Assembly: GCA_013540605.1 (NCBI GenBank)
Contig: JABVCK010000011.1
Location: forward strand, 1-46,902
Direction: 5' to 3'
DNA from: Bacillota bacterium
GTDB taxonomy: Bacteria; Bacillota; Clostridia; Ch29
Length of the DNA: 46,902 nt
Position 1 is the first letter of the stretch; each line of letters opens with the position of its first letter. Under the pieces are notes generated by a model, which was not told where the DNA came from, searched no databases, and worked only from the letters and a program-made list of their open reading frames with translations. Positions 285 through 44,193 of this stretch are shown here, in pieces. The translations under genes were made by a program, and so were the position numbers.

Positions 285-313
285 TTGACAAGGAAAACAG
301 GGTATGATAAAAT
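285..313 (+). promoter_or_regulatory. Sigma-A-type promoter of the leader/hydrogenase-regulator transcript
   Basis: A perfect -35 TTGACA (285-290) and a -10 TAAAAT (308-313) are separated by 17 bp, so transcription would start near 320. This is just ahead of the structured leader (320-472) and about 380 bp before the first gene. Confidence 0.7.
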
Positions 314-319
314 ATTAAC

Positions 320-472
320 AAATATAGGTTCAGACTGCTTGAGGGCATCCCTTGAGTAATCTGTTCTTACAAGAAGGCTAATACCTGACGGGGAAGATTT
401 TTTCCAACCCGGAAGGGAATTAGGACTAATCATGTTGATTCCTAACTTCCGTTCCGACGGAAGTTTTTTATT
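320..472 (+). promoter_or_regulatory. Structured 5' leader with mutually exclusive antiterminator and terminator (riboswitch-like attenuator)
   Basis: An intrinsic terminator is formed by ACTTCCGT (445-452), a TCCG loop and ACGGAAGT (457-464), followed by TTTTTATT. Its 5' arm is also the 3' arm of a longer upstream hairpin: CGGAAG (410-415) pairs with CTTCCG (446-451), TTAGG (420-424) with CCTAA (441-445), and AATCA (428-432) with TGATT (436-440). The two folds cannot coexist, which is the layout of a transcription-attenuation switch. A further small stem, GGGGAA with TTCC..CCC, lies at about 390-410. I compared the 320-410 part from memory with T-box, TPP, FMN, SAM, lysine, glycine, purine, THF, ZTP, fluoride, c-di-GMP and cobalamin consensus elements and recognised none. 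Downstream genes are the TM1266-like regulator and an ECF S component. Confidence 0.6.
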
Positions 473-702: not shown

Positions 703-957
703 ATGGCAAAAAGAATAGCTGTGATAGGAGCCATACTGGAAGACCCCAGGGGAGTACAGCACGAGTTTAACAACGTAGTTGCGGAGTACAAAGAAATCGT
801 CAGGGGCCGTATGGGAATTCCCTTTGACGAGGAGGGCGTATCTGTAGTCGCAATAACGGTTCTGGGAGATCTGGACAGTATAAACAGCCTGACGGGAAAA
901 CTGGGAAACATAAAAGGAGTAAGCGTTAGAACATCAATATCCAAGAAGGAAATCTGA
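703..957 (+). CDS. TM1266-family hydrogenase-associated regulator (ACT-like/NikR-like fold)
   Basis: This 84-residue protein starts at the ATG at 703, directly after a GGAGG at 691-695. An in-frame upstream extension exists but runs through the repeat element and has no ribosome-binding site. The sequence (MAKRIAVIGAILEDPRGVQ..., VVAEYKEIVRGRMGIPF...GVSVVAITVLGD, LGNIKGVSVRTSIS) matches the small TM1266-type family annotated as putative regulators of iron-only hydrogenase systems, which adopt an ACT/ferredoxin-like fold. Family members often sit beside hydrogenase maturation genes. Here the hydrogenase structural genes lie 15 kb downstream and no hydE/F/G is in the window. It is probably co-transcribed with the ECF S component that follows after 22 bp. 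Its DNA- or ligand-binding activity is not visible from sequence. Confidence 0.85.
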   Translation: MAKRIAVIGAILEDPRGVQHEFNNVVAEYKEIVRGRMGIPFDEEGVSVVAITVLGDLDSINSLTGKLGNIKGVSVRTSISKKEI

Positions 958-979: not shown

Positions 980-1498
980 ATGAAAGGTATAAGATTTATT
1001 ACAAGGACAGCGCTGCTTTTGGCACTTACCGTAGTATTTCAGATGATGAGGCCCTTTATTCCCCTTTCACCGCTGGGGTCCAATTTCATAATAGGCAGCC
1101 TTGTCAATGCTTCCCTTGCCACAGCATCGGTCATGGTCGGAATGTGGGGAGGTATAATAATAAGTGTTGCGGCTCCGGTAATCGCGTTTATGCAGCAGCA
1201 TATAGCCTTCGTATGGCTGGTTCCGATAGTTGCCGGAGGTAACGCCGCCCTTGTTCTTCTTTACGGGTGGTGGTACAGGAAGAATAAATGGACGGGTATT
1301 GCACTATCCTCGGTGGTAAAATTCGTTTTGCTCTTTGCCATGGTAAAAACAGCGGTGAGCGTACTCGTTGTTCCCCCGCCGGCAGCGGCGATGTTAACCC
1401 TCATGTTTAGCTGGCCTCAGCTTGTTACGGCAGTGATAGGCGGAATAATTGCAGTACCGGTTATTGAAAGGCTGAAGGATTGGAGCGGGAATAACTAG
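980..1498 (+). CDS. ECF transporter substrate-specificity (S) component
   Basis: This 172-residue, very hydrophobic protein has about five or six membrane segments and a basic N-terminus (MKGIRFITRTALLLALTVVFQ). The A-L-x-x-A-L-x-x-x-x-Q pattern and the GS-L-V-N...G-x-W-G-G-I-I-I blocks are typical of ECF S components. S components bind one vitamin or metal and need separate EcfA/A'/T proteins, which are not in the window. The start is fixed by GGGGGAGG at 963-970. Substrate is unknown. Because the next gene downstream is cobT, uptake of dimethylbenzimidazole or another lower-ligand base (the CblT role) is a reasonable guess. However, the cobalamin riboswitch lies after this gene, not before it, so its expression would follow the upstream leader instead. 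Confidence 0.8.
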   Translation: MKGIRFITRTALLLALTVVFQMMRPFIPLSPLGSNFIIGSLVNASLATASVMVGMWGGIIISVAAPVIAFMQQHIAFVWLVPIVAGGNAALVLLYGWWYRKNKWTGIALSSVVKFVLLFAMVKTAVSVLVVPPPAAAMLTLMFSWPQLVTAVIGGIIAVPVIERLKDWSGNN

Positions 1499-4838: not shown

Positions 4839-5762
4839 ATGAAGCATTCCATACTTATCCTGGATGACAGCAATTTTAACCTGGAGATTCTAAAAAGGCA
4901 GCTGGGGAGTATTTTCAATGTCATCACCGCAACTGATGCAAACCAGGGAATAAAGATAGCCGTAGAAAAAAAGCCCAGCCTTATACTGCTGGATGTTATG
5001 ATGCCAAAAATCAACGGGTATGAGGTGTGCAAGATTATTAAGAGCTATGACGGTACGAAGAATATCCCGGTTGTCTTCCTTACTTCAAGGAGTGAAATTG
5101 AAGATAAGGTGGAGGGTTTGGAAGTCGGTGGGGACGACTATATAACCAAGCCCTATAATGTAAGCGAACTGATAGCGAGAATCAACGTGCATATCAGGCT
5201 CAAAGAAGCCCAGGACAAGTTCAGACAGCTGCTGGAAGAAAAAAACCAGCTGATCGAGCAGCTTGAAAAGCTTTCACTGCATGATGGATTAACCGGTGTT
5301 TACAACAGGAAATACCTCGAAAGTTACCTTGAAAAGTCCTTTGAGGGGTGCGGGAGATATGGTTTGGATTTATCCGTTATTATCACGGATATCGATTACT
5401 ATAAAAGAGTGAACGATACATACGGCCACCAGGTGGGTGACGAGGTGCTGAAGAGATTCGTGGACAGAATAAGCGCCAATATCAGGAAAGCCGATGTGCT
5501 GGCAAGGTATGGAGGAGAGGAATTTGTTATTATTTCGAAAAACACCGGAATCGAAGGGGCTGCAGCCCTGGCGGAAAAACTCAGGGAGGCCATCCAGGAA
5601 AAGCCCTTTCAGGTGGAGGAATACAGCATAAATCTGACAGCCAGCTTTGGTATAGCAGCACTGAGCCGCGGCAACTACACCAGCCCAGCGCAGCTCATAA
5701 GGGATGCGGATATGTGTCTGTACAGGGCAAAAAACTCAGGGCGGAACAGGGTAGAGTACTAA
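4839..5762 (+). CDS. Response regulator with GGDEF domain (diguanylate cyclase)
   Basis: The protein has 307 residues from the ATG at 4839, preceded by AAAGGGGGATGGGG; an upstream in-frame extension overlaps the previous gene and is unlikely. A receiver domain (residues 1-120) has the acidic pocket LDD and the phospho-acceptor Asp52 in LLDVMMP, with the conserved Lys in the KPYN motif. A short coiled linker leads to a GGDEF domain whose A-site is GGEEF at 225-229. An RKAD inhibitory I-site (RxxD) sits at 216-219, five residues before it. It should make c-di-GMP from two GTP when phosphorylated and be product-inhibited. No cognate kinase is adjacent; an EAL-GGDEF protein lies 0.9 kb downstream. 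Confidence 0.95.
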   Translation: MKHSILILDDSNFNLEILKRQLGSIFNVITATDANQGIKIAVEKKPSLILLDVMMPKINGYEVCKIIKSYDGTKNIPVVFLTSRSEIEDKVEGLEVGGDDYITKPYNVSELIARINVHIRLKEAQDKFRQLLEEKNQLIEQLEKLSLHDGLTGVYNRKYLESYLEKSFEGCGRYGLDLSVIITDIDYYKRVNDTYGHQVGDEVLKRFVDRISANIRKADVLARYGGEEFVIISKNTGIEGAAALAEKLREAIQEKPFQVEEYSINLTASFGIAALSRGNYTSPAQLIRDADMCLYRAKNSGRNRVEY

Positions 5763-16990: not shown

Positions 16991-17119
16991 GCTGCCGGTT
17001 GGCAGAGTAAAGTTACCAGTTGCAAGACCTCAGTTGTCAGTTATCAGTCGACAGTGGTCAACTACCAACTACGAACTGTGATCTGTAATCTGTGATCTGT
17101 GATCTGTGAACTATCAACA
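16991..17119. repeat. Degenerate heptamer dyad element, copy B (inside the hnd operon)
   Basis: The left part has CAGTTGT, CAGTTAT and CAGTCGA units. The right part has CTACCAA, CTACGAA, CTGTGAT, CTGTAAT, CTGTGAT twice and CTGTGAA units in strict 7-bp register. It fills the whole hndB-hndC gap and stops just before the AGGAGG of hndC. Confidence 0.8.
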
Positions 17120-17132
17120 GAGGAGGTTAGCC

Positions 17133-18798: not shown

Positions 18799-20577
18799 AT
18801 GGCTGAAAATCAAAAACAGGATCAGGATAGAAAGATGCTTCGGATAAGAATCAACGATCAGGACCTGACTGTGCCTGAGGGAATAACTATTTTAGAGGCG
18901 GCCCACGGGATAGGTGTAAAGATCCCGACTTTATGCCATCTGGACCTTCACGATCTGCAGCTGCATAATAAAACAGCTTCCTGCAGAGTGTGTATGGTGG
19001 AGGTAGGTGACGCCATAAGGAATAAGCTGGTCCCGGCCTGTGTGACGAAGGCCTATGATGGGATGGTTGTCCGCACGGATACACTTCGGGCGATTACCGC
19101 AAGAAGAATGGCTGTAGAGCTTCTTCTGTCAAACCATCCCAACGAATGCTTCACCTGCCCCAAAAATCTGGAGTGTGAGCTTCAAGCCCTGGCCGATGAG
19201 CTTAATGTAAGAGAAATCCGGTGGGAAGGGGAAAGGATGGACTACCCCAAGGATTTATCCAGTGATGCCATCGTTAAGGATTCAAACAAATGTATCTACT
19301 GCAGGCGCTGCGAAACAGCGTGCAATGTGGTACAGACCTGCGGCATATTATCCGGCATCGGGCGGGGCTTTGACGCCTTTGTAGGCCCGTTCTTCAATAT
19401 TCCCATGGTAGAAACATCCTGCACCTACTGCGGCCAGTGCGTGCAGGTGTGCCCCACAGCCGCCCTTACAGAGGCGTATCATGTGGACAAAGTATGGGAG
19501 GCATTGAACGATCCGGATAAGCATGTCGTCGTCCAGACGGCTCCTGCCATTCGCGTGGCGTTGGGCGAGCTTTTCGGGATGGAGCCGGGAACAATTGTAA
19601 CGGGGAAAATGGTAACAGCGTTGAAACGCATGGGGTTTGACGCCGTGTTTGATACGGATTTCGGCGCCGACCTTACAATTATGGAGGAAGCGGCCGAGCT
19701 GATCTACAGAATTAAAAATAATAAAACGCTGCCGATACTGACAAACTGCTGCCCCGCCTGGGTCAAATTTATAGAGCATCAATTTCCGGAATTGCTCCAC
19801 GTTCCGTCCACCTGCAAATCACCGCATATTATGTTCGGAACCATCGCCAAGACCTATTATGCCGAGAAAAAAGGGCTGGATCCCGATAACATCGTTGTGG
19901 TATCAGTCATGCCCTGTATCGCAAAAAAGGCGGAGGCAAAAAGGCCGGAGCTTACCAAGGATGAGAATAATAATGTGGATATCGTCATCACCACAAGGGA
20001 ATTGGGAGCAATGGTCAAAGAGGCGGGCATAGAGTTCGACAGGCTGCCGGACAGCGAATTTGACAGGCCGCTTGGAGAAGCCACCGGCGCATCGGTCATA
20101 TTCGGGACCGCCGGCGGTGTTATCGAGGCGGCAGTACGTACAGCCTATGAGTGGATGACGGGTGAAACCCTTGAAAACGTTGAATTTGAGCAATTAAGGG
20201 GGATGGAAGGGGTTAGAAAAGCGGCTGTCAGAATAGGCGACCAGGAGCTTAAGATCGGTATTGCCAGCGGATTGGGCAATGCCCGCGTTATTCTTGAGGA
20301 GATCAGGGAAGGAAAGGCGGATTATCATGCAATAGAGATCATGGCCTGTCCCGGCGGCTGCATCGGAGGGGGAGGACAGCCTTACCACCATGGCAACGAT
20401 GAGATAATTAAAAAACGCAGAGAAGCTATTTACCAGGAGGATAGAAGAAAGAAAATAAGGAAATCCCATGAGAACCCTGAAATACTGGAATTGTATAGGA
20501 AATATCTGGGCGAACCATTCGGGGAAAAGGCTCATCAGCTCCTTCATACCCATTTTGAAAAACGGGAAAGGATTTAA
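18799..20577 (+). CDS. hndD: [FeFe]-hydrogenase catalytic subunit (group A, NADH-linked)
   Basis: This 592-residue catalytic subunit carries all expected clusters. An N-terminal [2Fe-2S] uses C46, C62, C65 and C81. A His-Cys3 [4Fe-4S] uses H113, C117, C120 and C126. Two ferredoxin clusters use C165-C175 and C208-C218. The H-cluster ligands are C318, C373, C517 and C521 in TNCCPAW, MPCIAKKAEA and MACPGGCIGGGGQP. By alignment with the C. pasteurianum enzyme (offset 18) the proton-path residues C317, E297, E300 and S337 are present, but the Ser before the Cys pair is Asn316. It makes or consumes H2. No signal peptide is present, so it is cytoplasmic. Maturases HydEFG are not in the window. Confidence 0.97.
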   Translation: MAENQKQDQDRKMLRIRINDQDLTVPEGITILEAAHGIGVKIPTLCHLDLHDLQLHNKTASCRVCMVEVGDAIRNKLVPACVTKAYDGMVVRTDTLRAITARRMAVELLLSNHPNECFTCPKNLECELQALADELNVREIRWEGERMDYPKDLSSDAIVKDSNKCIYCRRCETACNVVQTCGILSGIGRGFDAFVGPFFNIPMVETSCTYCGQCVQVCPTAALTEAYHVDKVWEALNDPDKHVVVQTAPAIRVALGELFGMEPGTIVTGKMVTALKRMGFDAVFDTDFGADLTIMEEAAELIYRIKNNKTLPILTNCCPAWVKFIEHQFPELLHVPSTCKSPHIMFGTIAKTYYAEKKGLDPDNIVVVSVMPCIAKKAEAKRPELTKDENNNVDIVITTRELGAMVKEAGIEFDRLPDSEFDRPLGEATGASVIFGTAGGVIEAAVRTAYEWMTGETLENVEFEQLRGMEGVRKAAVRIGDQELKIGIASGLGNARVILEEIREGKADYHAIEIMACPGGCIGGGGQPYHHGNDEIIKKRREAIYQEDRRKKIRKSHENPEILELYRKYLGEPFGEKAHQLLHTHFEKRERI

Positions 20578-39980: not shown

Positions 39981-40151
39981 CAGTTTTCAGTTTTCAGTTA
40001 TCAGATGACAGATGACAGACGTCAGGGCAATGCTATAGGGTAAAACCCAAAGGCCTGGTCCGGCGCCTGTGAACTGTGAACTGTGATCTGCGATCTGTGA
40101 TCTGTGATCTACCAACTACGAACTACGAACTAGCACCTGTACCTAGCACCT
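39981..40151. repeat. Degenerate heptamer dyad element, copy D
   Basis: The left half has CAGTTTT twice, CAGTTAT, CAGATGA twice and CAGACGT. A core contains GGGT..ACCC pairing potential. The right half has CTGTGAA twice, CTGTGAT, CTGCGAT, CTGTGAT twice, CTACCAA, CTACGAA twice, CTAGCAC and CTGTACC. The register is exactly 7 bp. It lies between the dehydrogenase and racemase genes of the minus-strand operon. Confidence 0.85.
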
Positions 40152-43898: not shown

Positions 43899-44193
43899 GA
43901 TCGCAGTCGGCAGATCGCAGGCACAATAGCTCAGTTTTTAGTTCCCAGTTCTCAGTTCCCAGATTACAGTTCGTAGTTCACGGACACAGGTGCAATAATT
44001 CAGTTCTTAGTTATCAGTTAACAGATCACAGGTATCAGGGTTATGCTTTTGGGTTTTTGCCCAATAAGCACTTCCCTGATGTCTGACAACTGATAACTAG
44101 CAACTGGTAACTGGTACTATGCTTTACCCCATACACTGACAACTGGCATCTGACAGCTGATTTCTGACGTCTGTCATCTGATAACTGATAACT
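43899..44193. repeat. Degenerate heptamer dyad element, copy E (longest)
   Basis: Many CAG-type units occupy the left (CAGTTCT, CAGTTCC, CAGATTA, CAGTTCG, CAGTTAA, CAGATCA, CAGGTAT). The core contains TGCTT..AAGCA and GGG..CCC pairing and the string AAGCACTTCCCTGAYGTCTG shared with copy A. CTG-type units occupy the right (CTGATGT, CTGACAA, CTGATAA, CTAGCAA, CTGGTAA, CTGGTAC, then CTGACAA, CTGGCAT, CTGACAG, CTGATTT, CTGACGT, CTGTCAT, CTGATAA twice). It is about twice the length of the other copies. Confidence 0.85.

Follow-up and report, generated by a model that had tools for sequence, protein, structure and literature searches.

The hyd-dyad motif is a widespread and apparently undescribed RNA element that precedes genes making, and perhaps importing, the iron cofactor of [FeFe] hydrogenase. 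We consider it very probable that the motif defines a cis-regulatory RNA class, seemingly a new one, for genes of H-cluster [2Fe] synthesis or acquisition, and that it acts through a core hairpin, P3, set against either an antiterminator or a ribosome site. This assessment covers the RNA class, its regulon and this mode of control; the reader of the hairpin and the transported solute lie outside it and are weighed separately below.

The leader from which the class was defined lies in a window of 46,902 nucleotides, the whole stretch of DNA that was analysed (contig JABVCK010000011.1 of assembly GCA_013540605.1, a bacterium of the Clostridia). It precedes genes for a TM1266-family protein and an ECF transporter S component. 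The features of the window are listed in Table 1.

Table 1. Features of the hyd-dyad leader and associated genes in the window.
Feature	Position	Strand	Remarks
Sigma-70-type promoter, TTGACA-17-TAAAAT	285..313	+	11/12 consensus matches; TG before the -10
hyd-dyad leader RNA	314..472	+	Start placed from promoter; fold, relatives and covariance searches
P2 hairpin	331..363	+	Covaries in close relatives (6/15 pairs changed on both sides); in part of the class only
P3 core hairpin, two symmetric internal loops, CURA-N4-RAAG on each strand	384..416 (extended stem 378-424)	+	
Antiterminator hairpin	about 411..451	+	5' strand doubles as the 3' strand of P3 plus extension
Intrinsic terminator	444..470	+	9-pair stem 444-465, loop UCCG, then T-run
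TM1266-family protein, putative RNA reader	703..957	+	TIGR03959 92.2 bits (cut-off 60.8); PF21699 85.2 bits
ECF transporter S component, candidate H-cluster precursor importer (inferred)	980..1498	+	PF12822 34.6 bits (cut-off 30.7)
[FeFe] hydrogenase large subunit HydA	18799..20577	+	TIGR02512 526.8 bits at 19267-20385; ORF

The leader folded far better than expected from its composition. For positions 318-480, the folding energy was −50.4 kcal/mol as compared to a mean of −36.7 kcal/mol for shuffled sequences (z −3.59), and none of 200 shuffles was as good. The promoter proposed in an earlier note on this DNA is present, with 11 of the 12 consensus bases, and is by itself within chance (1 found versus 1.7 expected in shuffles). 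The same note held that the antiterminator and the terminator share bases: folded separately, they yielded −12.6 kcal/mol (411-451) and −10.6 kcal/mol (444-470), respectively, and overlap at 444-451. In the window region alone, the counts of promoter-like and terminator-like elements are near chance. These counts are what an ordinary terminator behind an accidental upstream hairpin would give; such a chance origin is nevertheless exceedingly improbable in the face of the covariation, the held-out searches and the conserved position across families and classes described below.

The promoter and the first 46 bases of the leader recur in the same genome as a partial copy that is ∼90% identical (G000:C24:65388-65434, minus strand; L073 1889-1935) and precedes an unrelated coding sequence. 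Between the terminator and the TM1266 gene, the window contains 230 bases (473-702) with a repeat element inside, diverged copies of which occur at 44000-44113, 39987-40089 (minus) and 17085-17122 (minus). In relatives, unlike in the window, TM1266 lies close behind the terminator.

According to searches of Rfam 15, the leader (318-476) belongs to no known family: there was no match at the gathering score, and matches up to an E-value of 10 were at chance level, in keeping with the earlier view that it fits no known riboswitch class. Twenty other member loci and L222 likewise matched no Rfam 15 family over the gathering cut-off. The leader did not match the cobalamin riboswitch (RF00174), an example of which sits 1 kb 3' of it in the window. 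Finally, neither Rfam 15 nor the open-licence literature searched, including passages of PMC11109978, PMC8632094 and PMC7266159, was found to describe an RNA that regulates [FeFe]-hydrogenase maturation.

A DNA search of 99 relatives revealed the leader, within the same family, 5' of TM1266-ECF S in G003 (C30), G004 (C95) and, weakly, G001 (C3); G005 carried a degenerate copy directly 5' of its ECF S gene. The alignment of four leaders (A3: the window, L062, L065 and L066) yielded P2 and P3, the latter with an inner 3-pair helix. In this alignment, both partners changed in 9 of 33 pairs, and pairing held in 95.4% of cells versus 89.1% after shuffling. The unassigned attenuator of the earlier note is thus supported, the leader being conserved, with covariation, in its relatives. 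As to the proposed aptamer-like region, 320-410, the core at 384-416 (extended stem, 378-424) withstood comparison throughout and P2 did so in part of the relatives; the remainder did not. An outer pairing seen in the single-sequence fold (325-328 with 366-369) was unconserved in relatives and was dropped.

A covariance model built on the four leaders, R1, matched 32 of 391 genomes of the class at E ≤ 0.1, and the genes behind its good matches were hydE, hydF, hydG and TM1266. Two R1 matches, L125 (G240) and L126 (G061), were judged false positives based on unrelated genes downstream. A third, L129 (G014, before TM1266-hydG), was excluded from the core alignments because its P3 lacked complementarity. 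For the matches L105-L111 (E 0.003 to 0.02), genes were read only where the model described next gave the same place.

The core-only covariance model, R2, was trained on 16 of 20 cores (alignment A7); L117, L118, L120 and L124 were dropped between alignments A6 and A7 because MAFFT had misplaced them. R2 detected the core in 75 of the 391 class genomes at E ≤ 0.05, where ∼20 were expected by chance, and in 24 of 398 genomes of the phylum at E ≤ 0.01, where ∼4 were expected. Genes were read behind all 57 class places with E ≤ 1e-3, which lie in 51 genomes. The motif headed hydrogenase maturation genes at 49 of these places. The first downstream gene was hydG at 22 places, TM1266 at 20, hydE at 3 and hydF at 2; the remaining places comprised two with aspA then hydF, five with an NMT1-type ABC transporter, one with a nifH-like gene, one with an unrelated gene and one at which the contig ends right after hydE. 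The aspA gene product, aspartate ammonia-lyase, is a known partner in hyd operons and can act as the nitrogen source for the dithiomethylamine ligand (PMC11736057). With the 16 training places left out, 34 of 41 places headed hydrogenase genes and five headed ABC transporters, with one undetermined and one unrelated. In the phylum search, 17 of the 23 places besides the two strongest known ones lay directly before TM1266, hydE or hydG, and 6 did not; the 23 include L240 and L243, from class genomes with an earlier weak R2 match. We treated L181 (G361), L229, L232, L237, L239, L240 and L243 as false positives.

Several loci differed in arrangement. In L116 (G072:C59), the nifH-like gene headed by the motif is followed by two nitrogenase-component-1-like genes. 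In G282, which lacks HydG, one operon reads motif-TM1266-hydE-hydF-ECF S, and another copy of the motif precedes an NMT1-type ABC transporter (L344, L343). A regular-expression search for shorter dyads yielded variants 5' of TM1266 in L254, L292 and L313 that are insignificant by R2 and lie outside the counts above. In L313 and L292 (∼5616-5646), from Caldicoprobacter algeriensis and C. oshimai, the shorter dyad reads CUGA-N4-GAG on each strand and immediately precedes TM1266-ECF S.

The link to hydrogenase in the earlier note is therefore far stronger than was stated there, given the 49 of 57 places. By contrast, the suggested link to corrinoids or dimethylbenzimidazole found no support: none of the 57 places has a corrinoid gene first, and cobT has a cobalamin riboswitch of its own. 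In the window, this riboswitch (1553-1732, 122.1 bits) stands directly behind the ECF S gene and before cobT (1818-2873). From this gene order, and from the paralogous ECF S genes of L067 and L068 that also precede a cobalamin riboswitch and cobT, one could read a leader that is shared by ECF S and cobT and is related to corrinoids, DMB or cobalt. However, these cobT-linked paralogues lack the motif, which elsewhere heads hydrogenase genes, and we regard such a leader as very improbable.

Comparison of the cores defined the motif. Among the 16 training cores of R2, 6 of 10 pairs changed on both sides, and RNAalifold predicted the same structure. Alignment A11 comprised 36 hand-chosen held-out cores: L205, 21 from the 41 class places outside the training set, and 14 from the 17 phylum places linked to hydrogenase. 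As some omitted cores (e.g. L165, L183, L188 and L195) looked less regular, A11 and the statistics on 52 cores lean towards typical members. In these 36 selected cores, 93.0% of cells were paired versus 80.0% after shuffling, the covariation score was 0.398 versus 0.172, and 51 cells changed on both sides versus 16.5; none of 500 shuffles reached any of these values. Sliding the structure along the alignment reduced pairing to 26 to 49%, and RNAalifold, unaided, recovered 8 of the 10 core pairs. In the 52 cores of A7 and A11 combined, the dyad 5'-CURA-N4-RAAG-3' occurs on both strands, each position being conserved in 48 to 52 of the 52. The four-pair helix between the conserved bases is free to vary in sequence, yet covaries. 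Because the conserved bases form a dyad, the core consists of two equal 2x2 purine loops about a two-fold axis, and its symmetry is nearly perfect. P2 occurs in the family of the window and several others and is absent from most copies heading hydG; many copies of the motif lack both P2 and a terminator.

The members with an attenuator suggest how the motif acts. In these, P3 with its extension has a 3' strand complementary to the terminator's 5' arm, which makes P3 and the antiterminator mutually exclusive. We examined 80 loci for this complementarity, of which 23 had no terminator-like hairpin and some of the other 57 hairpins are coding sequence. It exceeded that of 95% of shuffles in 18 of the 57, where ∼3 were expected, and lay below this mark in 39. 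The complementarity was clearest in L205 (−25.7 kcal/mol) and L210 (−24.3 kcal/mol), which were unmatched by any of 200 shuffles, followed by L200, the window, L066 and L114. In copies heading hydG, the core hairpin stops just short of the Shine-Dalgarno region or within it.

The direction of control, read from the mutually exclusive structures, would be that of an OFF switch. A reader holding P3 folded would block the antiterminator, allowing the terminator to form and turning TM1266-ECF S off. Were P3 free, about 411-424 would pair with 439-450 and transcription would continue. Before hydG, a P3 hairpin at the Shine-Dalgarno region would probably block ribosomes.

In this respect, the leader resembles vitamin-type OFF riboswitches (TPP, FMN and cobalamin), which have the same mutually exclusive arrangement of sensor stem, antiterminator and terminator and whose regulons likewise combine cofactor synthesis with ECF and NMT1-type ABC transport. 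It has a conserved, structured and covarying domain, as befits the sensor of a riboswitch, and an expression platform exclusive with that domain in the window and the clearest members, although insignificantly so in 39 of the 57 loci with a terminator-like hairpin. It differs in that the core is small and dyad-symmetric, with no junction aptamer and no Rfam match. A second group of known regulators comprises the protein-read attenuators of the PyrR, TRAP and HutP type. The hyd-dyad leader shares with these a compact conserved RNA site within an attenuator and a candidate regulator without a DNA-binding domain, TM1266, whose gene opens the operon at 20 of 57 places; the site in the leader is not known to resemble theirs in sequence.

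A protein site would account for the two-fold symmetry of the core no less well than an aptamer would. Our leading, if tentative, candidate for the reader is TM1266, which would bind the core as a sensor resembling the C-terminal domain of NikR. According to a high-confidence model, TM1266 has a beta-alpha-beta-beta-alpha-beta fold that is nearest to 2nzc and next to the metal-binding domain of NikR. The match to the NikR_C profile was under the cut-off (19.1 bits). TM1266 has the fold of the C-terminal metal-binding domain of NikR but, unlike NikR, no DNA-binding domain. In most of the maturase-less genomes found, it is TM1266 that accompanies the motif. Moreover, in G202, where the motif precedes hydG-hydF-hydE with no TM1266 within 20 kb, the protein is encoded elsewhere (92 bits, within the 1.234 Mb read); in this one genome, the candidate reader is present though unlinked from the motif, as can be expected of a protein-read attenuator. 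Some TM1266-ECF S loci have no core recognized by R2, indicating that the coupling of TM1266 to the motif is less than strict.

Direct sensing of a small molecule ranks just behind TM1266 and is almost as likely. As a true riboswitch, the RNA itself would bind a small molecule or metal, protein-free, and shut off synthesis and uptake as TPP, FMN and cobalamin riboswitches do; candidate ligands are the [2Fe] cofactor or an intermediate, a product of HydG or HydE, Fe2+ or another H-cluster metabolite. The attenuator platform, the vitamin-riboswitch layout of a regulon with biosynthesis, ECF S and NMT1-type ABC genes, and the occurrence of the motif far from any linked TM1266 are consistent with such a riboswitch, which we consider a serious but lesser possibility. 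Steric blocking by a protein better fits the small two-fold symmetric core with its two equal 2x2 purine loops, as well as the hydG copies, in which the core has no evident alternative pairing partner. The protein need not be TM1266: the dyad symmetry suggests an oligomeric protein in general, and TM1266 also occurs without a detected motif. Nevertheless, we consider it improbable that another trans-acting protein, such as a moonlighting maturase or an uncharacterised RNA-binding protein, reads the hairpin. No gene besides TM1266 stays with the motif in maturase-less genomes, and HydE, HydF and HydG were not detected in the genome of the window.

The genome of the window is 99.55% complete and encodes two HydA proteins over the cut-off, one of them in the window, away from the leader; this HydA is the likely beneficiary of the leader-controlled genes. 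Searches of the genome detected none of the maturases HydE (E ≤ 1e-30), HydF (E ≤ 1e-50) and HydG (E ≤ 1e-100). By the same thresholds, G003, G004 and G005 also lack all three maturases and their relative G001 has all three (HydE was tested in seven genomes only). G003 and G004 share the arrangement hydA, motif, TM1266, ECF S; that of G005 is hydA, degenerate motif, ECF S.

HydG was present in 43 of the 51 motif genomes and absent from 8, and in all 8 of the latter the motif heads a transporter. This is an ECF S component behind TM1266 in G000, G003 and G004, an ABC transporter behind TM1266 in G233, G320 and G356, and an ABC transporter directly behind the motif in G282 and G072, of which G072 keeps HydE and HydF. 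The motif heads TM1266 and a transporter in the genome of the window, and likewise in two further lineages that lack HydG and HydF. In a host that has HydA but in which none of HydE, HydF and HydG was detected, import of an H-cluster precursor is the most likely, if tentative, role of the ECF S component of the window.

Beyond the motif genomes, the association is sparser. We tested 80 of 153 HydG-negative class genomes: 63 encode HydA, 12 encode HydF, and 52 encode HydA but neither HydG nor HydF. The motif was found in 8 of these 52. In 20 HydA-positive genomes without HydG and HydF, 17 hydA neighbourhoods contained nothing related. The exceptions were G066, in which hydA adjoins an ECF S gene, and G018 and G054, which share the order hydA, core with terminator, TM1266, SBP, permease, ATPase; these two cores are weak by R2 (24.7 and 17.7 bits) but lie exactly before TM1266. 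Among 80 relatives of the ECF S component in named genomes, TM1266 lies just upstream in 15; a strong core precedes TM1266 in three, and a weaker core lies between TM1266 and ECF S in three (E 0.0008 to 0.39). As only 8 of 52 genomes have the motif and 17 of 20 hydA neighbourhoods lack such a transporter, the import hypothesis leaves most maturase-less genomes unaccounted for.

In its full form, this hypothesis holds that bacteria that have an [FeFe] hydrogenase and have lost HydE, HydF and HydG salvage the [2Fe] cofactor or a precursor through ECF or NMT1-type ABC transporters, with TM1266 sensing the supply on a two-fold symmetric RNA hairpin instead of on DNA. We consider the full form rather unlikely. 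According to PMC6984386, synthetic [2Fe]adt given to living cells matured apo-hydrogenase, and the use of external cofactor is therefore chemically possible. The hyd-dyad RNA may help explain how bacteria without the cofactor-making enzymes obtain the iron cofactor of [FeFe] hydrogenase.
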